From contig NZ_PJCF01000003.1 in NCBI RefSeq assembly GCF_002835935.1, forward strand, positions 558,001 to 622,000: a DNA stretch of 64,000 nt, given 5' to 3'. Below the pieces are notes generated by a model. The model made no database searches. It saw nothing but the letters and a program-made list of their open reading frames with translations, and was not told where the DNA came from. Of the stretch, positions 15,144 to 57,684 are shown piece by piece (position 1 is the stretch's first letter; the number at the start of each line of letters is the position of its first letter). This DNA is from Paraglaciecola sp. MB-3u-78. GTDB taxonomy: Bacteria > Pseudomonadota > Gammaproteobacteria > Enterobacterales > Alteromonadaceae. Both the position numbers and the translations under genes were made by a program.

Positions 15144-15451
15144 GGATTATTGACATAAATTGTCTTCACTTTTTGCAAGCACCTGCTAAGTTAGTTGGCG
15201 CTTTTTTGTTCTACTGGTCTTAAGTTAATATCTAAACATTGATATAGGAACGCTGCAGCTAAAGCATCGGCTTTGCCGACTAAGATTTTGATACCTAATT
15301 AGGGCCATTTATACTGGTTTTGTTTTCAGTGCTCAGTCATTTGTCCAATAACAGCAGAGCGTGGACATTTAGGGGTATTTCCGCAATTACGTTTTGCTTG
15401 GTTGCTTGAAATCGTTTATAAAGATGGCAGTAGGGGCCGTATAAAAAAATG
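15144..15451. other. Gene-free stretch leading into the cassette array
   Basis: No credible coding frame was seen. The first part contains GCTAAGTTAGTTGGCG (about 15187), which reappears with one change at about 17207, just after an attC site. From about 15342 onward the sequence is homologous to 17023-17133. It therefore looks like degraded cassette material that extends the array upstream to close to the valine operon. Confidence 0.5.
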
Positions 15452-15520
15452 GTCTGAATAATATTGGACATAAATGGGAGGGTGAAAGATCCCTTTATGT
15501 CGTCGAATAAATTGTTAGCA
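15342..15520 (+). repeat. Diverged direct repeat, copy 1 (cassette end plus attC)
   Basis: About 180 bp is homologous to 17023-17200. Shared landmarks are TTTGTCCAATAA, CGTGGACATTTAGGGG, TTTCCGCAATTA and TTTTGCTTGGTTG, and both copies end in an attC-like hairpin. The reading frame open in copy 2 is broken by stops here, so the repeat is probably not protein-coding. Confidence 0.75.
15452..15520 (+). repeat. Degenerate attC site 1
   Basis: GACATAAATGGGA pairs with TCCCTTTATGTC apart from one extra base, like the extrahelical bases of attC. It ends in GTTAGCA at 15514-15520. The left end (TCTGAATAAT) departs from the RYYYAAC consensus. It is homologous to the better site at 17133-17200. Confidence 0.5.
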
Positions 15521-15531
15521 GCCTAAATAAA

Positions 15532-16146
15532 GTGAGATGTAAAGTGAAAATAGCCGTATTATTATTGGGTCTATTAGCTGTAGGGTGTACTTCCACAACA
15601 ACATTACAAGTTGAGAAAGTAGAGGACAATGTCAGAGATGGTTTATCATTCAAAATATCATCTCGAGAAGGTCCTTCATCTGAAGTAATAAAGTATCTGC
15701 CCCATGACTTCTGTAATATGGGATTTACGGCTTCCGTTTCAAAAGTTTATGATGAAAGTGAATGGAATCCTAACTCAAGAGTAACATTTTCAAGTTCGAA
15801 AAACGGACAAAGTTTTTCCATATTGTTTTACTACGACAAATCCAATAAGAACATTTTACCCCTAATTATGCACAGCGAGGACGAGACAGCAGAACCACTT
15901 GGAATGGCTTTTTCCTTAGGAGAGAAAATCACATCAATGATTTACTACGAAAATCTTGATTTAGGTGTTTCCCTTGCACCATCATCCAAGATGGATAGCA
16001 TTATTAATCATGTTGGTGAAACTAAGCATACAGAAGAGTTTGATTTTTCAGTAGTAGATATTGGATTCAAGCCTGACCAAGTAAAATTTTTAGGTGTATC
16101 CATTGATTCAGTTTTTGATTCAATATATTTTTCTGTCGGCTGCTAA
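15532..16146 (+). CDS. Cassette gene: predicted lipoprotein, unknown function
   Basis: The 204-residue product begins with a lipoprotein-type signal (VKIAVLLLGLLAVGC), so it is probably anchored to a membrane through Cys19. The remainder is polar and beta-rich, with no domain recognised. The start is ambiguous: GTG at 15532 or GTG at 15544, the latter giving a more usual signal length. The stop codon lies inside the next attC site, as is common for cassette genes. Confidence 0.7.
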   Translation: MRCKVKIAVLLLGLLAVGCTSTTTLQVEKVEDNVRDGLSFKISSREGPSSEVIKYLPHDFCNMGFTASVSKVYDESEWNPNSRVTFSSSKNGQSFSILFYYDKSNKNILPLIMHSEDETAEPLGMAFSLGEKITSMIYYENLDLGVSLAPSSKMDSIINHVGETKHTEEFDFSVVDIGFKPDQVKFLGVSIDSVFDSIYFSVGC

Positions 16147-16233
16147 CAAGGTATTCAAACGGACACGTACAGTTTGCTTGCGCTTCGCGCAGTCTAGCAA
16201 ATTGTACTTAGCCGCTTAATATAAGCGTTGAGG
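16141..16233 (+). repeat. attC site 2
   Basis: It runs from TGCTAAC (16141-16147) to GTTGAGG (16227-16233). The inner part contains paired segments around ACAGTTTGCT and AGCAAATTGT. It overlaps the end of the lipoprotein gene. Confidence 0.65.
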
Positions 16234-16412
16234 CTGTAGGATTTCTCAAAAGAGGGAAATAACGGATGAAATTTATGTTCGTAGATCCTGTAAAAGTCAT
16301 TTTTTGGTAGGATATCGCATCAAGTCTCACGGAGAAACGCGTGTTGAGGCTTAATTTAAATAATTTCTGAAGCTGTTTTTCTATAAAGAGAAATTCTACA
16401 GCCTCGTTAGGT
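16234..16412 (+). other. Possible ORF-less cassette with long inverted repeat
   Basis: Between attC site 2 and the GTTAGGT at 16406-16412 there is no credible gene. Two 18-bp arms (16230-16247 and 16388-16405) are complementary at 17 of 18 positions, each adjoining a GTT core. The 140 bp between them could be a large attC-like structure or a non-coding cassette. No RNA family is recognised. Confidence 0.45.
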
Positions 16413-16416
16413 ACTT

Positions 16417-16677
16417 ATGGAAAAGGACAGTAAATTGCGTATATTCTTAATTGTATTTCTTAGTCTGTTTGTTTCAGGCTGCGCTTTAAATATGCCGTCA
16501 AACGACAGAATAATAGAACTATCACACAAGCAGATCGAATGCCCAAAAGAAGATGTTTCAGTTGTCCATAGACGTAACTCTCTAACAAGCCGTGATTGGG
16601 AATTGTCATGTGGCGATACAAAACACGTTTGTGAAATGCATGCAAATAATTCAGTAAGCTGCAAGGCTAAACTCTAA
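16417..16677 (+). CDS. Cassette gene: small lipoprotein of unknown function
   Basis: The 86-residue product starts 4 bp after the GTTAGGT core. Its signal peptide ends in a good lipobox (FLIVFLSLFVSGC, Cys22). The mature part is short and contains three further cysteines (IECPKE, LSCGDT, HVCEMH) and a fourth near the end (VSCKAKL), so disulfides are likely in the periplasm. No family is recognised. The stop codon is followed within 20 bp by the next attC region. Confidence 0.7.
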   Translation: MEKDSKLRIFLIVFLSLFVSGCALNMPSNDRIIELSHKQIECPKEDVSVVHRRNSLTSRDWELSCGDTKHVCEMHANNSVSCKAKL

Positions 16678-16696
16678 CAAGGTTGTCTATGCAAGT

Positions 16697-16783
16697 ACCT
16701 AACAAGCCGTTTAACAAAAACGCCAGCAAACCAAGCTGGCACGGACTCGCAAAAAGCGCTCGCCCGTTAACGGAGCGTTAATG
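16697..16783 (+). repeat. attC site 3, with an extra R''-like box before it
   Basis: ACCTAAC (16697-16703) to GTTAATG (16777-16783), with inner pairing of GCCAGC and GCTGGC. A second R''-like box, CTCTAAC, lies at 16672-16678 in front, as if two attC left ends had been joined by a recombination or deletion. Confidence 0.75.
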
Positions 16784-17132
16784 TCTGCTTTAGAGCTATA
16801 GCTCAATCATAAACCGAATGTCCCCTATGTCCGCAATTCGCTCTTTGCTGACGTTACCCAAAGCCTTAGTCGCTGACCACCTTACAATTATAATAATTGA
16901 AGTCTTATTACCAAACGTCGATATCGAAAAATTTACTAATAATTATCAGGCAGTTACATCGATGTGGCTAGTACCACTAATTAACACTTATATAGCCACA
17001 TATATGCAGTTATTACCAATTTGTCCAATAAGAGCAGATCGTGGACATTTAGGGGGATTTCCGCAATTATCTTTTGCTTGGTTGGAAGAAAACGTTTATA
17101 AAAGAGATACGTAGAGGCCGAGTAAAAATATG
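16784..17132. other. Cassette body without a convincing gene
   Basis: A 98-codon frame (16818-17114) is open, but the homologous copy at 15342-15450 has stop codons in that frame and no ribosome binding site is clear, so it is not called. Its second half is the repeat shared with 15342-15520. It probably represents a decayed or non-coding cassette. Confidence 0.45.
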
Positions 17133-17200
17133 GCCTGAACTATAGACGACATAATGGGGTGTTTAAACACGACATTATGTCGTCGACTAAACTGTTAGGT
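17023..17200 (+). repeat. Diverged direct repeat, copy 2 (cassette end plus attC)
   Basis: This is the partner of 15342-15520. Similarity runs through the end of the cassette body and the attC hairpin and continues briefly after it (GCTAGGTTAGTTGGCG). Confidence 0.75.
17133..17200 (+). repeat. attC site 4
   Basis: GCCTGAAC at the left and GTTAGGT (17194-17200) at the right. The inner palindrome GACGACATAATG / CATTATGTCGTC is perfect over 12 bp. Confidence 0.7.
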
Positions 17201-17498: not shown

Positions 17499-17801
17499 AT
17501 GTCAAAACAACCCATCATCTTTTGGCAGCAACACGTAAGCCAATGGAAGGATTCAGCATTAACACAAACGCAGTATTGTAAAAAGCATCAACTAAACCCG
17601 CAGCGACTAAGTCACCATAAGCGTAGATTAGAAACGCAAGAAACAGCACCGGTCAAAACGGGTTTCATTGCATTGCCTATTCCAGAGTATTTACCCAAGC
17701 CAGAATTATTAACGCTGCACTTCGCCAATGGCCTGTCGTTATCGGGTATTGCGCCCAATAATATCGATGTGGTGAAACAGCTAACGGCGGCATTGTCATG
17801 A
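17499..17801 (+). CDS. tnpA: IS66-family TnpA (accessory protein)
   Basis: A 100-residue protein with a helical N-terminus, WQQHVSQWKDSALTQTQYCKKHQLNP, in the style of the helix-turn-helix TnpA of IS66 elements. It is required for transposition but its exact role is not known. The last 4 bp overlap the start of tnpB (ATGA). Confidence 0.85.
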   Translation: MSKQPIIFWQQHVSQWKDSALTQTQYCKKHQLNPQRLSHHKRRLETQETAPVKTGFIALPIPEYLPKPELLTLHFANGLSLSGIAPNNIDVVKQLTAALS

Positions 17802-18163
17802 CAAGTGCGATGCGCCCGTGCATGTCGCTTACGCATATTTATCTATATCCGCAGGCAATTGACTTCCGTAAGTCATTTCGAGGCATTAGCGCCATTGTCG
17901 AATGTGAGTTGGGTCACAACCCTTTTTCGGGTCACTTGTATGTGTTCACCAATAAACGGCGCACTAAAATCAAATGTCTGTTCTGGGAAAACAATGGTTT
18001 CGTGCTGTATTACAAAAGCCTAGAGGAAGATAGATTCATTTGGCCGAGGTGTGAAAAGGAGGTGATAACACTCAACGGCCAGCAAATAAACTGGCTACTT
18101 GATGGTCTTGATATTAGTGCCATGAAGGGCCATAAAAAGTTGCATTTCGACAGTGTTTTTTAG
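17798..18163 (+). CDS. tnpB: IS66-family TnpB (IS66 Orf2)
   Basis: The 121-residue product has the IS66 Orf2 signature: YPQAIDFRKSFRGISAIVE, FTNKRRTKIKCLFWENNGF, and the C-terminal part with INWLLDGLDI. The true start may be one of the internal ATGs (17810 or 17819), since family members usually begin shortly before this motif. It overlaps tnpA by 4 bp. Confidence 0.9.
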   Translation: MTSAMRPCMSLTHIYLYPQAIDFRKSFRGISAIVECELGHNPFSGHLYVFTNKRRTKIKCLFWENNGFVLYYKSLEEDRFIWPRCEKEVITLNGQQINWLLDGLDISAMKGHKKLHFDSVF

Positions 18164-18198
18164 GGCTTTTTAGCCTCAAGTTTAGTATAATATCGGGC

Positions 18199-19815
18199 AT
18201 GAAATTACCGCCCAACACCCATAAAAACAAGGCTTTTAGCGACACCGATACCATGTCAAGGTTGCAAGCTATGCTGTCTGAAAAAGACGGGGTGATTGGG
18301 GAAAAAGAAACACTGATTGCAGAGCAAAGTGACATCATCGAAAAGAAGTCTGATGTCATCGATTCACTTAAAAAGCGCGTTGAGTTACTCGAAGAGTATT
18401 TACGCTTATCTAATAGCAAACGCTTTGGCAGCAGCTCTGAACAAACCCCGCCAGAGCAAGGTAACTTGTTCAACGAAGCCGAAGCGACCAGTGAGCCAGA
18501 ACAAACTGAGCCTGAGTTACCGACCACAAGCGAGCCTAAAGCCAAAACCGGTCGCAAACCCTTTGCTAAAAACCTACCACGCACCCAAGTGTTTGCGTAT
18601 TTGTCAGATACTGAAAAAGAAGGCGCAATCAATACCTTCTTTGTGAAAGTCAGAGAAGAGCTAGATATTATCCCTGCCAAAGTACAGGTACTAGAGTACA
18701 TGCAGGAAAAGGCGGTGTTTAAAGACGAACAAGGCACAACCACCATGAAAGCGGCTGAGGTCATTAAACACCCTGTACCCAAAGCCATGGGCAGTATCAA
18801 CTTAATGACCTACATCATTATTGCTAAATACGCCGATGGCATGCCGCTTTATCGATTAGAGGGGATTATCGAACGATACGGGGGCAGCATATCAAGAACA
18901 ACACTCGCCAACTATGTCATTGCGCTAGGCAAACAAATCCAACCCTTAATTAACTTATTAAGGGAGACTCAGCATGCCGGCTCACTCATTATGGCGGATG
19001 AAACCCGCATTCAGGTATTAAAAGAGCCAGGGCTTGCGCCCACGGGCGATAAATTTATGTGGGTGACACTCGGCGGTAAAGCCGACCAACAAAGCGTGCT
19101 GTTTGACTATGACCCATCGCGTGCTCGCCATGTGCCTATGCGCTTGCTACATGGATTTACTCATGGCTACCTGCAAACCGACGGTTATGCAGGTTACAAC
19201 GAAGTGTGCCGCAAAAACCAGCTCATTCAATTAGGCTGTATGGATCACGCTCGCCGCAAATTCATCGAGGCACAGCAATCACAACCTAAAGGGAAAAAAA
19301 TAAAAGCCAGCAAAGCCGACATGGCCTTGAGCCTGATTAACAAGCTCTATGGGATTGAGCGCACCATCAAACATGCTAGCAATGAGAAAAGACTGGCCGT
19401 TCGCCAAGCTAAGAGCATGCCGATATTAAACACACTGCAGGCATGGCTCACGGCAAACAAACCGCGCGTGGCCACCGACAGTTTAACTGGCAAGGCCATG
19501 ACCTACTTGCATAATCAGTGGGATAAACTCACTGTGTATTGCACAGATGGGCAGCTTCGCATCAGTAACATTATGGCTGAAAACGCCATTCGCCCTTTTG
19601 CCGTTGGGAGGCGTGCATGGTTATTCGCCGACACACCTGCTGGCGCAAACGCCAGTGCCGCACATTACAGCTTGATTGAAACCGCTCGGTTACATGGCAT
19701 TGAGCCATACGCATATCTCAATACTATATTCAAAGCGATACCCTATGCGGAAACGGTGGAAGATTTTGAAGCGTTATTGCCGTGGAACTATAAGCGCAGT
19801 ATTACGACTGTTTGA
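18199..19815 (+). CDS. tnpC: IS66-family transposase TnpC
   Basis: This 538-residue DDE transposase has a coiled-coil N-terminal region (leucine-zipper-like, up to about residue 75) and SSEQTPPEQGNLFNEAE. The catalytic domain contains IMADETRIQVL, the segment LQTDGYAGYN and, near the C-terminus, NIMAENAIRPFAVGRRAWLF. The frame is uninterrupted, so the element may be active. Confidence 0.93.
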   Translation: MKLPPNTHKNKAFSDTDTMSRLQAMLSEKDGVIGEKETLIAEQSDIIEKKSDVIDSLKKRVELLEEYLRLSNSKRFGSSSEQTPPEQGNLFNEAEATSEPEQTEPELPTTSEPKAKTGRKPFAKNLPRTQVFAYLSDTEKEGAINTFFVKVREELDIIPAKVQVLEYMQEKAVFKDEQGTTTMKAAEVIKHPVPKAMGSINLMTYIIIAKYADGMPLYRLEGIIERYGGSISRTTLANYVIALGKQIQPLINLLRETQHAGSLIMADETRIQVLKEPGLAPTGDKFMWVTLGGKADQQSVLFDYDPSRARHVPMRLLHGFTHGYLQTDGYAGYNEVCRKNQLIQLGCMDHARRKFIEAQQSQPKGKKIKASKADMALSLINKLYGIERTIKHASNEKRLAVRQAKSMPILNTLQAWLTANKPRVATDSLTGKAMTYLHNQWDKLTVYCTDGQLRISNIMAENAIRPFAVGRRAWLFADTPAGANASAAHYSLIETARLHGIEPYAYLNTIFKAIPYAETVEDFEALLPWNYKRSITTV

Positions 19816-22790: not shown

Positions 22791-24710
22791 ATCGGGTAGC
22801 CAAGGGTCTCTAACCCTCAGCCCCCACAACACCCTGCATGCGGCTCCGCACAGGGCGTTTCATTTAGGATAGTGAAGCGCAATCCAACCATCACGTAACG
22901 AATAAAGCCCTTCGGATTTTAAGTAATCAAGCGATAAGGCTTGATTGATCCCCGGAGTTTTCGCACTACGCCATGGCCCTTTACTGGTAATGCCACACGC
23001 AACCGCAGCTTGTACATGCACACCTAATCTCATTAAACTTCTGACTTTGGTACGTGGTCTTCGCCACTGCCGCCAATACGCCATTCTCACTCTGCGCCTG
23101 ATCCAATGATCTAAGTCTACACATCGTTGATAGCTATTAGCGATACCAAAGTAGTTTATCCAGCCTCGTAAATATTGACTGATTTTAAAGAGTTGATAAT
23201 GCATAGACACGCCCCAGTTACGGTTCGTTAACCGCCGAACTTGCTGTTTAAACTTCAGCAAAGTCTTCGGATGCCATTGAATGCGTCCTCTGTTGAATGT
23301 GAATCCAAGGAATTTGCTTTCACTGGTTTTAACGACGTGGCTTTTGGTCGTATTAACGACCAGTTTCAAACGGTGACACAGGAACCTGCTGATACTACTC
23401 AGCACACGCTTGCCCGAACGCGGCGTCTTTACCAAAATGGTAAAGTCGTCCGCGTATCGGGCAAACTGATGGCCTCGTTTCTCAAGCTCTTTGTCCAGAG
23501 GGTCGAGCATGATGTTGGACAGCAAGGGTGACAACGGCCCGCCTTGTGGTACTCCTTCTCGGCTCTCCACGTAAAGCTGGTTATCGATAACCCCAGCTCG
23601 CAGATAACGTTTAATCAATTTAAGTAGACGTTTGTCCTTCACTTTGTAGCCAAGGAGCGTCATAAGTAAATCATGATTAACGCGGTCAAAGAACTTAGAC
23701 AGATCAACATCGACTGTAAAACGGCGACCCGTTTTAATGATGCTTTGTACCTGTTTCACCGCTTGTTGCCCATTTCGATTTGGCCTGAACCCAAAACTGT
23801 TGTCTGAGAAGGTCGGGTCGAAAATAGGCGTAAGGACTTGAGCAATGGCTTGTTGGATCACTCGGTCAACGATGGTCGGGATACCTAGCTGACGTTTACC
23901 GCCATCTGGTTTATCTATTTCCACACGCCGAACGGGTGAAGGTTGGTATTGACCTGAGCAAAGCTCAGACATAATACGTTTCCAGTTTCCATCCTTTGCC
24001 CAAGCGGGGAAGTCATCAATGGACATCCCATCAATGCCAGCGGCCCCTTTGTTGGCTCGAACTCGTTTCCATGCAGCCAAGATATTGGCTGGACGAAGAA
24101 TAAGCCCAAGTAGATCTGCACTAAAGGCTGGCTGCTTGTCGGTACGCTGAGTCACGTCACTACCGGACGGCATTCGTGTATTCAAGTCTGACAAGGCTCC
24201 TCCTTTGTTCTAAATGTTCGGACCTTCACCGTGTCCCAACCATTACGATGGGCATTTGGCTAATATGTCGTCTGCTGACTTCTGCTTAATCACATGACGG
24301 CTTACACCGTTATGCGCTATCGGTTTTCATCTATTTGCTCTTTCCAGTCGATGACACTGAAAAGCCAAGGCACTTGTATACCAGAGCCTCACTGGTTAGT
24401 TACCGATCGCTTGTTAAGCAGATCTCCCCAGATAAAAGCATGAACTTTCTTTGCACTGCTGCATCATTTACGGTGGCCATTAGATCACGTGGTTTCGTCG
24501 TCTTGTGCCAACTCACCTCTAGCCTACGCCTCATATGATGTTCTTGTTCATCAGCTCGCAAATTTGCGTCCGGCTTCCTCCAGACCAAGCCTCGCGGCTA
24601 AGCCCTTGCCATTCGCTAGTAGTTAACGTTTAATAACGGTAAGTTATATAAACGGTGATCTTCCTACAGAGGACTTTCACCTCATTAGTTCGTGCCCATG
24701 CTGGGCGTAC
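22791..24710 (-). mobile_element. Group II intron of the IIC-attC type
   Basis: The 1920-bp intron lies on the minus strand, opposite to the cassettes, as is usual for attC-targeted group IIC introns. Its 5' end reads GTACGCCCAGCATGGGC, followed by GGTGAAAGTCCTC, typical of domain I. Its 3' end has the structured region with GGAGCCGCATGCAGGGT and finishes in GGCTACCCGAT. The exons join as TTTTGT and TAGGC on the minus strand, which is the target described for this intron class. A start two bases upstream (GTGTACG) is possible but would not restore attC. Confidence 0.92.
22860..24194 (-). CDS. ltrA: Group II intron reverse transcriptase/maturase
   Basis: The 444-residue intron-encoded protein helps the intron RNA splice and reverse-transcribes it into new sites. 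Visible RT blocks include GAAGIDGMSIDDF, the segment VDVDLSKFFDRVNHD, GVPQGGPLSPLLSNIML and the catalytic FARYADDF. A thumb/maturase region follows (LRGWINYFGIANS). There is no C-terminal HNH endonuclease domain, as expected for class C introns. The frame is complete, so the intron may be mobile. Confidence 0.95.
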   Translation of the reverse strand: MSDLNTRMPSGSDVTQRTDKQPAFSADLLGLILRPANILAAWKRVRANKGAAGIDGMSIDDFPAWAKDGNWKRIMSELCSGQYQPSPVRRVEIDKPDGGKRQLGIPTIVDRVIQQAIAQVLTPIFDPTFSDNSFGFRPNRNGQQAVKQVQSIIKTGRRFTVDVDLSKFFDRVNHDLLMTLLGYKVKDKRLLKLIKRYLRAGVIDNQLYVESREGVPQGGPLSPLLSNIMLDPLDKELEKRGHQFARYADDFTILVKTPRSGKRVLSSISRFLCHRLKLVVNTTKSHVVKTSESKFLGFTFNRGRIQWHPKTLLKFKQQVRRLTNRNWGVSMHYQLFKISQYLRGWINYFGIANSYQRCVDLDHWIRRRVRMAYWRQWRRPRTKVRSLMRLGVHVQAAVACGITSKGPWRSAKTPGINQALSLDYLKSEGLYSLRDGWIALHYPK

Positions 24711-26971: not shown

Positions 26972-28504
26972 ATGAAAATCAATACAAAATTCATCACCTT
27001 ATTGCTGCCTCTGACACTGTTAGCTAATGCTACTTTTGCAGGTAATGATTTTTCAGCGATTGATCGATATGTTAATGCTGTAAAAGAAGAAGTCGGTTTA
27101 CCGTCAGGTACCGCGATCGCTATTGTAAAGGATGGTGAAATTGTTTATGAAGGCTATTTTGGTTACGCCAATGTAAAGGAAAAGAAAAAGGTAACGTCGA
27201 ACACCGCCTTTTATCTTGCTTCTGTCACTAAGCCCCTATTTGCATTGTCTACGTTGTTAATGGAAAACAACGGGAAGATTAAAGACACTACGTCAATGAC
27301 AGAAATGTTTCCAGATATAAATTTTCCTCACCTTGATACAAGTCACATTCAGGTTAAGCATTTATTATCTCATACTCATGCTTTAGCTAATCGTCCGTTG
27401 GAAGATACCCTTGCATTTACAGGGCAACATAATAAATTACAACGATACAAATTAGCCGCAGCAACAACTATCGATAAAGCGACTGAGTTGGGCAATTTTC
27501 AATATAGTAACTTGGGTTATAACCTGCTGAGTCTTTGGGCTGAAGATAGCTTTAAACAAGATTGGCAGAAAACAATTGCTGAATTGGTTTATCAACCTTT
27601 ATCAATGCAGCATACCTCTTCATATACAAGTGATGCCCCTAAAAAAGGATATGAAATTGCGCGTCCGTATGGATTTTATGTTGAGGACCCTGAAGAAATA
27701 CTTCCTTTTGAAAAAAGTGATGAAACCATGCAAGCCGCTGGTGGAACCGTTTCTTCTGCACGTGATATGGCAAGGTTTTTAATTGCCCAATTAAACGAAG
27801 GACGAGTTGATGATAAACAAGTATTTCCTGCTAGTGTCATTAAAAAATCGCATCAACAATTAGCGGTAAACGACTTAAAATATCGTGACTTTATACGCAA
27901 GGGTTACGCTTGGGGCTGGTACATGGGACCTTATAAAGAAGAAAAAATGTACCATCACTTTGGTGGCGTGGCAGGCACCCATGCCCATACTTCATTTATG
28001 ATAGAGCATAATATTGGGCTAGTTGTGCTTAATAATGAGTCTACGGTTGGCAGTAAAATGACAAATGGTATCGCAGATATTGCTTATAGTATTTTGCTCA
28101 ATAAAGGGGATGCCAACACTATTGCTGATGCTCACCTTAAAAGTATGCAAAATAGCTGGAAAGCAATGGAAATTGATATTCAAGAAACCTTTGATAGCCA
28201 TAAAAAACGAAACGCTTCCAGAACAATGACACTTACTCAAGATAAAGCTAATTATGCGGGAAGTTTTCGTAATCCATTATGGGGAAAATTGATTGTAGAG
28301 TTACTTAAAACAAACGAGTTAAAGTTCAGTTTGGGAGATTTAAAAGCCGTTGCTACTGCGGGGAAATATCCTGATGAATTCAGAATACAGTTCCAATCTA
28401 GCGGCAGAATAGCTGCTTATAAAGTGATTGATGGAGAACTATCATCAATCGATGTCTACGGTATAAACCCCCTTGGTGTTGAACGATTTACACGTATAAA
28501 CTAA
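26972..28504 (+). CDS. Exported beta-lactamase-family serine hydrolase
   Basis: The 510-residue product has a signal peptide (KFITLLLPLTLLANATFA), then a beta-lactamase/penicillin-binding-like domain with the SxxK motif in LASVTKPLF and the YxN motif in FQYSNLGYN. A later HHFGGVAGTHAH segment stands where class C-like enzymes carry the third motif. About 110 C-terminal residues form an extra domain, as in many esterase-like members. The substrate is unknown; peptidase, esterase or lactamase activity are all possible. A perfect TATAAT lies at 26938-26943, so the gene may carry its own promoter, which is unusual for a cassette. It follows attC site 12 by 110 bp. Confidence 0.82.
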   Translation: MKINTKFITLLLPLTLLANATFAGNDFSAIDRYVNAVKEEVGLPSGTAIAIVKDGEIVYEGYFGYANVKEKKKVTSNTAFYLASVTKPLFALSTLLMENNGKIKDTTSMTEMFPDINFPHLDTSHIQVKHLLSHTHALANRPLEDTLAFTGQHNKLQRYKLAAATTIDKATELGNFQYSNLGYNLLSLWAEDSFKQDWQKTIAELVYQPLSMQHTSSYTSDAPKKGYEIARPYGFYVEDPEEILPFEKSDETMQAAGGTVSSARDMARFLIAQLNEGRVDDKQVFPASVIKKSHQQLAVNDLKYRDFIRKGYAWGWYMGPYKEEKMYHHFGGVAGTHAHTSFMIEHNIGLVVLNNESTVGSKMTNGIADIAYSILLNKGDANTIADAHLKSMQNSWKAMEIDIQETFDSHKKRNASRTMTLTQDKANYAGSFRNPLWGKLIVELLKTNELKFSLGDLKAVATAGKYPDEFRIQFQSSGRIAAYKVIDGELSSIDVYGINPLGVERFTRIN

Positions 28505-31007: not shown

Positions 31008-31760
31008 TTATTTCCCTTCTTTCATAGCTGTTTTTCTGCGATAACTTTCTCCTGTTAATTGAATGATGTGAGCATGATGAACTAGTCTGTCTATAGCGGC
31101 GACGGTCATGGTGGTATCTGTAAATAGCTCGTCCCAGTCTTCGAACGATTGATTTGAGGTTATGATCAAGCTATGTCTTTCATAGCGATGTGCAATCAGT
31201 TCAAACAGCACGTTGGTTTCTTGTTCGGTCTTTTTAACGTAACCAATGTCGTCAATGATAAGCGCTGGGTATTTATCAAGTTTGTTGAGTGCATCTTGTA
31301 ATTTGAGTGACTGTTTGGCTTCTTGTAGCTGTTGGACTAATGCGCTGGCTGAGTAGAATTTCACACGGGTACCCGCTTCAATCAGGCTGTACCCTAAGCT
31401 ACTCGCCAGATGTGTTTTACCTACGCCACTGGCTCCGAACAACAATAAATTAGCACCCTTTCTTACCCAGTCGTGATTGTCCGCAAGCTCGTACATTCTC
31501 GCTTTGTTAAGGCCTTCAATGGCCGTGAAGTCGAAGCCACCTAAGTGCTTGCCAGACGGCAGCAGCGATTCTTTTATGTAGCGCATTTGACGTTTGTCAG
31601 TGCGACTGGCCAGTTCAATATGGCATAGTTCACTGAGATACTGTTCGGGTCGCCATTGGTCGTGCAAGGCTTTATCAGCAATAGCTTCCCACTGCTCTGT
31701 AACGGCACTTAAACGTAGTTGTTTGAGCATTAAAGGCAATGAAGCCGTTGCACTATTCAT
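31008..31760 (-). CDS. istB: IS21-family helper ATPase IstB
   Basis: The 250-residue AAA+ protein assists the IstA transposase and target capture. The Walker A motif is GASGVGKTHLASSLGY and the Walker B is ALIIDDIGYV. The N-terminal helical domain begins LPLMLKQLRLSAV. It overlaps istA by 8 bp, as is usual for this family. The frame is complete. Confidence 0.93.
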   Translation of the reverse strand: MNSATASLPLMLKQLRLSAVTEQWEAIADKALHDQWRPEQYLSELCHIELASRTDKRQMRYIKESLLPSGKHLGGFDFTAIEGLNKARMYELADNHDWVRKGANLLLFGASGVGKTHLASSLGYSLIEAGTRVKFYSASALVQQLQEAKQSLKLQDALNKLDKYPALIIDDIGYVKKTEQETNVLFELIAHRYERHSLIITSNQSFEDWDELFTDTTMTVAAIDRLVHHAHIIQLTGESYRRKTAMKEGK

Positions 31761-33246
31761 GACGACCGCCTTGCAGTAACGACTGGTATTGCGACAACTG
31801 ATGCTGCATCACATTTACCTGTGGGATGTCCTTAGGCTTCGCGCCAAAGCGCTCCTGGCAATCAAATAAGCTCGGTAATCGACTGATATTGAGTTGGTTA
31901 GTTATGAAGCGACCTAAGCGCATTTCATTATCCAACTTGCTGCCCAGATGTAATATTCTGACCATGTAACGGCTGGCATCATCTGCCTTCATGGTAGCCT
32001 CAACGTACTGCCAGATGGTGCGGTAATCCTCATTAGGCAACAACTCATCACGCCATTGTGAGCATCTAAAAGCCCTTGGCTTTTTCACGAGTGCGTCGAT
32101 TACGTGTTTGTAATTGACGCTGCGTTTGCGTGTTGCACCTGACGCATAAACGCGCTCTAAGCGATAGGTCAGTTCGTGGCCTAAGAACAAGTCTAAGTGG
32201 TCATCATAGACATGCACCTTTACCTGACTGTCCACTAATCGAGAGGGCACCGTGTACATGACACGTTTCACATTGATGGTACTGGTGCGCGTCACTCGCA
32301 CGTATTCTTGTGAGTAATTGACGCTCTTATGCACAGGTAAGTCTTGTAATTGTCGCTGCTCTTGCGCGAACTTAGCGGCAATGCGTTTATTGCGCCGACT
32401 GGTGACGCTTTGAACGAAGGACTCATATTCTACCCGGCAATTAAAATCGAATGAGCCTCGCACTTTAAGGGCTTGCTCAACCTGAGATTTAATATGGCGA
32501 TTACTTGATTCAATCGCGCCATTCTCATGCGCTACGCCGGTATTATTGCGCGTTGCAATAAACCCATAGTGCGCGATCAACTCTTGATAACTGGCGGTAA
32601 AATCCTCAACGGAACTGTTGTTTTTATACGCGGCACTTAAGCTATCTGTACGCACTTCCTGAGGCACACCTTCGCTTTTAGCAAACGCATTTTGTAAGCC
32701 ATCGGAGAAGGCAGCAAAGCTTTCTCCACCATAAATAACGTGTGAGTACACCCAACCGCTGGCGGGCAAACGATAATTAAACAGCATGTGTTTAAACGTC
32801 TTACCATCAATGGTTACGGGACTCTTGATGTGGGTAAAATCACATATCCCGAGCTTTCCAGGTTCATGGTGCTGCATAAACATCACGTCTTGAGCAGGAC
32901 CATGTAAATGTCGCCACTTGCGGATACGCCGCTCAAGTGTTCGTCTGGATGATGAACTGAATTTATCGGAATGGGCATCGCATAAGTGGTCGAAGACACC
33001 AACAGGGCTTATGTTTGCATCTTGCTTTAATAGCGGTAAAACAACTGTATCCCATATTGATTCAAGCGGATCTACTCTGGTTCGCCACCCTCGTTTATTC
33101 TTTTTAGGTTGGTGTCGATTACCTTCAATACGACCGGCAGTGCTGACGGAAATGCTAGATTTACTCGCTGCGACTTCCTGTGTGAAATTCTCTCGTAACT
33201 TCATATATAACCTGATTTGTCTTTCTGTAATGTGATTACCCGACAC
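31753..33246 (-). CDS. istA: IS21-family transposase IstA
   Basis: A 497-residue DDE transposase. The N-terminus has a helix-turn-helix (FTQEVAASKSSISVSTAGRIE). The catalytic core includes LGICDFTHIK, VRTDSLSAAYKNN and the Glu in NNTGVAHENGAIESSNRHIK. A C-terminal beta-barrel-like part follows. The frame is intact, so with istB the element may be active. Confidence 0.93.
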   Translation of the reverse strand: MSGNHITERQIRLYMKLRENFTQEVAASKSSISVSTAGRIEGNRHQPKKNKRGWRTRVDPLESIWDTVVLPLLKQDANISPVGVFDHLCDAHSDKFSSSSRRTLERRIRKWRHLHGPAQDVMFMQHHEPGKLGICDFTHIKSPVTIDGKTFKHMLFNYRLPASGWVYSHVIYGGESFAAFSDGLQNAFAKSEGVPQEVRTDSLSAAYKNNSSVEDFTASYQELIAHYGFIATRNNTGVAHENGAIESSNRHIKSQVEQALKVRGSFDFNCRVEYESFVQSVTSRRNKRIAAKFAQEQRQLQDLPVHKSVNYSQEYVRVTRTSTINVKRVMYTVPSRLVDSQVKVHVYDDHLDLFLGHELTYRLERVYASGATRKRSVNYKHVIDALVKKPRAFRCSQWRDELLPNEDYRTIWQYVEATMKADDASRYMVRILHLGSKLDNEMRLGRFITNQLNISRLPSLFDCQERFGAKPKDIPQVNVMQHQLSQYQSLLQGGRHE

Positions 33247-57510: not shown

Positions 57511-57684
57511 TCAAGAATAAAGAGAACGAAGGCGCAGTAAGGTCTGTATGTACAGAATATCTACTTTGGTTTCTAGCAAGTGAGTCGCGAAACTGTGCCT
57601 TAAAGTGTACATGGGCACCCGTTTTTCAATCTCAGCATCTTTGGCCACCATTTCGCTCACCCGCAATCCCTCGGCGTATGCCAC
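57511..57684 (-). pseudogene. Remnant of a tyrosine recombinase with internal deletion
   Basis: A short minus-strand frame reads VAYAEGLRVSEMV, then AKDAEIEKRV, then YTLRHSFATHLLETKVDI and LYIQTLL, ending at TGA 57511. The first part matches the catalytic Arg I region (GLRVSE) and the second the His-x-x-Arg region (LRHSFATHLLE) of phage-type integrases. About 70 residues between them and the final Tyr box are missing. It is too short to be functional. It is not clearly an integron integrase; the pattern is closer to XerD-like or transposon-type recombinases. Confidence 0.8.

Follow-up and report, generated by a model that had tools for sequence, protein, structure and literature searches.

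A short stretch without reading frame in a Paraglaciecola integron array, read as a miniature element of an IS1182-type insertion sequence group found at attC cores

The stretch of Paraglaciecola sp. MB-3u-78 DNA analysed here (contig NZ_PJCF01000003.1, positions 558,001 to 622,000; 64,000 nucleotides, referred to as the window) contains an integron cassette array in which one interval, 16230-16405, lacks a protein-coding frame and is bounded by inverted arms. The question raised by this locus is what such an interval represents; an unusually large attC, a non-coding RNA cassette and a miniature element using attC cores had been proposed in an earlier note. The interval is very probably a non-autonomous miniature inverted-repeat transposable element (MITE) of an insertion sequence (IS) group of the IS1182 type that inserts into integron attC sites at their R′ core (G^TT), and it is better understood as a parasite of the integron system than as a cassette or a giant recombination site. 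This assignment follows from the matching ends, an IS with an invariant D-D-E set, the strong preference for attC cores in the close group, the fixed orientation, an empty site and the multiplication of a sister MITE. The element and its borders are:

16227-16229, + strand: GTT core of attC R′, left copy of a 3-bp direct repeat (read from the sequence)
16230-16247, + strand: left terminal inverted repeat, GAGGCTGTAGGATTTCTC (self-complementarity; identical end type on IS copies)
16230-16405, + strand: probable MITE without open reading frame, 176 bp (homologues with the same arms in G001, G020, G027, G016, L051, L065, L079, L086 and L108)
16388-16405, + strand: right terminal inverted repeat, GAGAAATTCTACAGCCTC (self-complementarity; identical end type on IS copies)
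16406-16408, + strand: GTT, right copy of the 3-bp direct repeat and junction with the next cassette (a single GTT in the empty sites L190, L191, L193, L194 and L200)

The anatomy described in the earlier note was borne out. The two 18-bp arms are complementary at 17 of 18 positions, each directly adjoins a GTT core, and no open reading frame (ORF) of at least 60 amino acids lies between them, the longest internal ATG frame having 23 amino acids. RNA structure prediction, which the note had called for, gives a strong hairpin that none of 200 shuffled sequences equals (z −5.93); when the bottom strand is folded as DNA, one of 200 shuffles is as good (z −3.09). The inverted-arm structure is beyond chance, as judged from these shuffles and, more strongly, from the recurrence of both the arms and the interior in other genomes. 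A search of the own genome with the element gave no other match at E 0.001. The flanking GTT on both sides, together with the single GTT in empty sites, fits either a duplication or a GTT carried on one end.

The same 18-bp ends bound IS copies of 1843-1870 bp, and the short, ORF-less element thus shares its terminal repeats with an autonomous IS. Where intact, these long elements encode a transposase of ∼510 amino acids. The 512-residue transposase of locus L081 matches DDE_Tnp_1_6 and DUF772 above the Pfam cut-offs, and residues D142, D305 and E468, invariant in 15 transposases, are taken as the putative catalytic set. Terminal inverted repeats of 16-18 bp are present on both IS ends, as is characteristic of the IS1182 family. 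Close transposase matches occur in 15 of 197 genomes of the order, at 17 places; at all 17 the ends have left-hand GTT or right-hand AAC, and at 11 both are present, where ends with up to three mismatches were accepted at any flank and poorer ends only at GTT/AAC. The window's own genome holds a broken IS copy with the same kind of ends on contig C87, ∼25 kb from an integron integrase gene. In 28 IS copies (30 were listed, L049 and L110 being skipped) all 27 readable left flanks are CGTT and all 25 right flanks found are GTT, the right-end pattern admitting only GTT and three near variants; three right ends outside the matches of that script sit at GTT in a separate end search, and the right end assigned to the L046 IS belongs to a neighbouring MITE. 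The transposase gene always points away from the attC side. Of the proposals of the earlier note, the third, that of a miniature element using attC cores, is supported.

Two further observations concern the IS. By eye, a run of T follows a short inverted repeat just inside the left ends in L079, L098 and L059; this is possibly a terminator shielding the transposase gene from transcription of the array. Among plasmid records, the close transposase has three matches at E 1e-60 (two Pseudoalteromonas, one Catenovulum) and a more distant transposase, described below, has two (Pseudoalteromonas).

The element itself also recurs at different sites. Matches at E 0.001 or better were found in 11 of 98 related genomes, a set that includes the window's own genome. 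Full or near-full-length copies, with 70-82% identity, are present in four other genomes (G001, G020, G027 and G016, the last with two copies), the remaining matches comprising ends only. Inspected by eye, the G001 and G016 copies lie at attC cores with GTT, and the G020 copy lies at an attC-like site with TTT as left core. The G027 copy (L003:1491-1520) has lost its left end, where the sequence resembles the end of a group II intron; this suggests recombination between two attC parasites, a MITE and a group II intron. Besides the two copies in G016 and the one in G027, nine copies of the window type from seven genomes were aligned, leaving out L091 and L088 (other interiors) and L028 and L029 (N runs). 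They share one orientation relative to the attC side and have a mean column identity of 85%. A search of 72,556 plasmid records and of the E. coli collection with the element gave no match at E 1e-5, and a link to resistance integrons was rejected on this ground.

A sister MITE subfamily of 146-148 bp is represented by 10 copies in G093, with a mean identity of 94% (89-100%), whereas their flanks are only 40% identical over the upstream 100 bases and 34% over the downstream 80 bases. These alignments indicate that the sister subfamily, as distinct from the window type itself, was multiplied by copying within one genome, which is not explained by integrase shuffling because integrase recombination is conservative. 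Both-ended elements among the matches listed are mostly 69, 121-129, 145-149, 167-178 or 1843-1870 bp long; lengths of 199, 201 (with N runs), 821 and 1438 bp also occur. The 178-bp copy L091 retains the first codons of the transposase gene and looks like an internal deletion of an IS. Tandem elements with a single GTT between them occur at L032:2459-2627, L218 and L046, as if new copies had landed at the attC core beside an older copy. On the minus strand of L092, a 1438-bp stretch lies between two exact ends at GTT; its longest ORF, of 170 amino acids, is on the opposite strand and does not encode a transposase, and the stretch may be cargo or two broken elements.

To examine where the ends sit independently of attC, the 18-bp end was scanned alone, with flanks ignored, in genome_contigs (84,980 species), giving at least 116 stretches; the counts of ends, junctions and both-ended elements derived from it hold among the matches listed. 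At least 137 exact ends were found: GTT precedes 79 of them, AAC precedes 45, and the remaining 13 follow other sequence. About 7.5 chance matches are expected in the whole collection by arithmetic, and ten of the 13 were judged to be chance from organism and flank (two in Edwardsiella, the others outside the carrier genera). With these ten set aside, 124 of 127 ends abut GTT/AAC. The GTT flanks read GCGTT in 73 of 79 cases and TTGTT, as at R″, in none, which places the insertion at R′ and not at R″. Among 49 elements retained with both ends, 45 have GTT on both sides and four differ on one side (L027, L112, L051 and the third in L031). These were taken from 52, after removal of L026, which has an IS110-like ORF and ends judged to be chance, of L059, with a poor end and GAT as right flank, and of a 600-bp L033 row, a nested pair; since the listing accepted only GTT and six near variants, the exact-end scan serves as the unbiased count.

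The adjoining attC sites were identified with a covariance model, R1, built from 34 attCs without element: 32 of 38 sites picked by a regular expression, and two from this window, the element-bearing attC not among them. Four picked sites were left out as not attC by eye (L039, L043, L128, L142), as were L086, which ends in an element, and L157. With complete match lists and E ≤0.01, 53 of 80 left junctions coincide with the end of an attC; at E ≤1 the number, counted from part of the match lists, is 61. At the right ends of the elements R1 finds none (0 of 45, among the matches listed). The 19 left junctions that remain at E ≤1 are, by eye, mostly attCs of other types or follow another element. 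An earlier attC-hairpin heuristic, at its loosest threshold, recovered 43 of 73 junctions compared with 6% of 1500 controls.

At the locus itself, the element is preceded and followed by ordinary cassettes:

15515-16227, + strand: upstream gene cassette, beginning with TTAGCAGCC after the G of a GTT core and ending in its own attC (ORF 15532-16146; end-to-end pairing)
16141-16229, + strand: ordinary attC belonging to the upstream cassette, with R″ TGCTAAC and R′ GCGTT (model R1; 93%-identical empty relative in L190)
16407-16777, + strand: downstream cassette, beginning with TTAGGTACTT, with ORF 16417-16677 and attC model match 16697-16783 (end pairing and attC model)

In the upstream cassette, 15505-15531 pairs with 16130-16156 (27 nucleotides, 81% complementarity), as expected for the two ends of one cassette, and in the downstream cassette 16403-16416 pairs with 16693-16706 (14 nucleotides, 93%). 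Since each cassette start thus pairs with the beginning of the attC of that cassette, the two neighbours are complete cassettes, and the element has been added exactly between them. R1 matches the upstream attC at 16141-16233 (55.7 bits, E 1.5e-9) and the downstream attC with 23.4 bits (E 0.012); between 16234 and 16696 no match is found at E ≤1. An empty counterpart exists in L190 of genome G027, with 93% identity over 90 bases, where a single GTT is followed directly by the next cassette; the same arrangement is seen in L191, L193, L194 and L200, at 80-91% identity. The earlier note had held that a normal attC at this place, combined with arms not conserved in homologues, would undo its proposal: a normal attC does adjoin the element, but the arms are conserved.

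A more distant group of IS was reached through the L184 transposase, which is 46% identical and through which further copies were found in 18 of 369 sampled genomes of the class, taken as Gammaproteobacteria from the named carriers. Examination of 21 of the 27 places, together with L184, gave 22 loci; GTT adjoins both ends in 15 of them, where the ends resemble GAGGCTGTAGAAAAAC, and one end in three. By eye, 11 of the 15 upstream sequences are attC-like and one is a tandem arrangement.

Several points weigh against the assignment. The interior of the window type (171-178 bp in the nine copies) shows no visible alignment with the IS interior. The L081 transposase scores 263.8 bits (E 3.1e-78) against the IS1182 model NF033551, below the curated cut-off of 270. 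Among the matches listed, three ends in carrier genomes are flanked by ATT, AAT and CAC, and 27 of 80 left junctions have no R1 match at E ≤0.01; the hairpin heuristic missed the window's own attC, and R1 was used in its place. In the distant group four of 22 loci gave no ends, and the three remaining upstream sequences of the 15 (L184, L231 and L236) are not attC-like, which speaks against a strict specificity, although each reads ACGTT. Finally, movement of the MITE and the IS is deduced here from the comparison of sequences. As a separate observation, one of the L184, L231 and L236 insertions apparently lies in a coding region.

These points have to be set against what the alternatives would require. 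IntI cuts exactly at G^TT, and the G^TT boundaries on both sides and the fixed orientation relative to attC would suit a genuine ORF-less gene cassette that the integron integrase moves and whose whole length acts as an odd attC. Such a cassette is nevertheless very unlikely. It should carry its own attC at the 3′ end, where the element has an inverted repeat and GTT, and the R″-L″-L′-R′ architecture is absent from the element. The end-to-end complementarity of the two whole neighbouring cassettes reaches up to the element, the same ends bound DDE insertion sequences, and the multiplication of the sister subfamily within one genome does not fit a conservative recombinase. The earlier idea of an unusually large attC is rejected, as the normal attC match stops at the element and R1 finds nothing inside it, on its right end or on the 45 right ends of relatives listed.

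A structured non-coding RNA gene carried as a cassette, which the earlier note had also entertained, would account for the strong hairpin and for the column identity of the nine copies, but is extremely improbable. The covariation term is unfavourable (+0.45, nine homologues), changes on both sides occur in 3 of 45 pairs, and most changes in the arms break pairs. Rfam gives no match at gathering scores, and the four promoter-like sites found are all outside the element. With both covariation and Rfam negative, the element does not qualify as a structured RNA family. The lack of a visible alignment between the interiors of the window type and the IS would be expected if the MITE belonged to another partner, its ends resembling those of the IS by convergence, and other DDE families do mobilise short-ended elements. 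This is highly unlikely, as the element and the IS agree in their 18-bp ends, in GTT placement and in the attC side, and a decayed IS of this type, with these ends, is present in the same genome.

If the element is a MITE of the IS1182-type group, a DDE transposase supplied by a complete IS, of which a decayed copy survives on contig C87, would recognise the 18-bp ends, cut there and insert the element into the attC of the upstream cassette at its R′ GTT, with GTT then present on either side. The MITE would be moved in trans by this transposase, and the GTT presumably arose as a 3-bp target duplication and does not belong to one of the ends. The upstream attC would then likely keep a usable core (GTTGAG), and the MITE would become the leader of the downstream cassette. 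As regards target recognition, reading of a folded attC is attractive because DNA hairpins are the targets of IS1272 and TnSha1, two members of the IS1182 family. A perfect stem of at least 4 bp just before the GTT is present at 29 of 75 insertion sites, compared with 6.6% of 3000 control GTT and 7.3% of 1651 control CGTTA sites. The same stem occurs in 17 of 34 element-free attCs; it is a general attC feature, and hairpin selection in the manner of IS1272 is not shown by it. None of the three non-attC sites of the distant relatives has a stem of at least 4 bp, and these sites favour a linear motif. The transposase may thus read either a linear CGTTA-type motif with its context or the folded attC. 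A more far-reaching possibility, which we consider doubtful as a whole, is that an old IS1182 lineage became a dedicated integron parasite. Its transposase would recognise the folded attC much as the integron integrase does and join at the same G^TT; the element end (GAGGC) would imitate the R′ box and thereby keep the host attC recombinogenic, and the MITEs would ride as leaders of downstream cassettes, spreading by transposition and by integrase-driven cassette shuffling.

The cassette array occupies ∼15.2-30 kb of the window. A second ORF-less repeat is present at 15339-15518 and 17019-17198 (∼180 nucleotides each, 80% identical), both copies ending in (C/T)TGTTAG at a cassette start; it has no further copy in this genome at E 0.001. 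A group II intron at 22791-24601 (Rfam matches), with a reverse transcriptase at 22860-24194 on the minus strand, appears to have inserted into an attC of this array. Insertion sequences of IS66 type and IS21 type (17499-19815 and 31008-33246) lie in or beside the array, which also encodes a protein with a serine beta-lactamase fold at 26972-28504 (PF00144, E 9e-45). No integron integrase above the family cut-off was found in the window, where a weak integrase-like fragment lies at ∼57535-57648 on the minus strand. Intact integrases are found on two other contigs (G000:C8:32608 and G000:C87:138272). The array accordingly looks like an attC cluster without its own integrase.

Group IIC-attC introns are mobile elements that insert in attC, and IMU-type MITEs are short inverted-repeat elements found near integrons. 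The former are retroelement ribozymes with a reverse transcriptase, neither of which is present in 16230-16405. Tn3-derived miniature elements are likewise short inverted-repeat elements near integrons (PMC13367494, available text). IMU and Tn3-derived MITEs flank and mobilise genes (in part after the available text of PMC13367494), whereas the present element sits at an attC core within an array. The IS1111-attC group comprises IS1111-family elements with attC as their target, among them ISKpn4 and ISPst6; the accessible part of PMC11187229 describes a DEDD transposase, repeats that are subterminal and targeting guided by a non-coding region. The elements described here do not belong to this group, having a DDE transposase of IS1182 type (DDE_Tnp_1_6, DUF772), terminal repeats and GTT on both sides. 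According to the available portions of PMC5678879 and PMC4923244, IS1272 and TnSha1 share the IS1182 transposase family and target DNA secondary structures; IS1272 removes the target stem-loop, makes no target duplication and has little sequence preference. Here, in contrast, the attC stays, GTT is found on both sides and CGTTA is strongly preferred. IS1202-family elements at dif/pdif are also site-specific IS with a fixed orientation beside tyrosine-recombinase sites, but they represent another family at another site, 5 bp from the XerC box (PMC10132070, accessible part).

In the literature searched, whose coverage leaves most subscription journals outside, no report of an IS1182-type IS or MITE at attC was found, and the available parts of PMC12444791, PMC9374279, PMC12950786, PMC9137128 and PMC7923331 contain no such element. 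Targeting of attC by mobile elements is already known; an IS1182-type transposase family that does so, and its MITEs, appear to be new. In integron arrays, stretches without ORF are readily taken for odd cassettes or unusual attC sites, and one class of them now gains an identity and a mark by which it can be recognised, namely 18-bp ends flanked by GTT. A DDE transposase lineage is thereby added to the elements known to target attC, and a direct test becomes possible of whether a DDE transposase reads a folded recombination site or a short linear motif.
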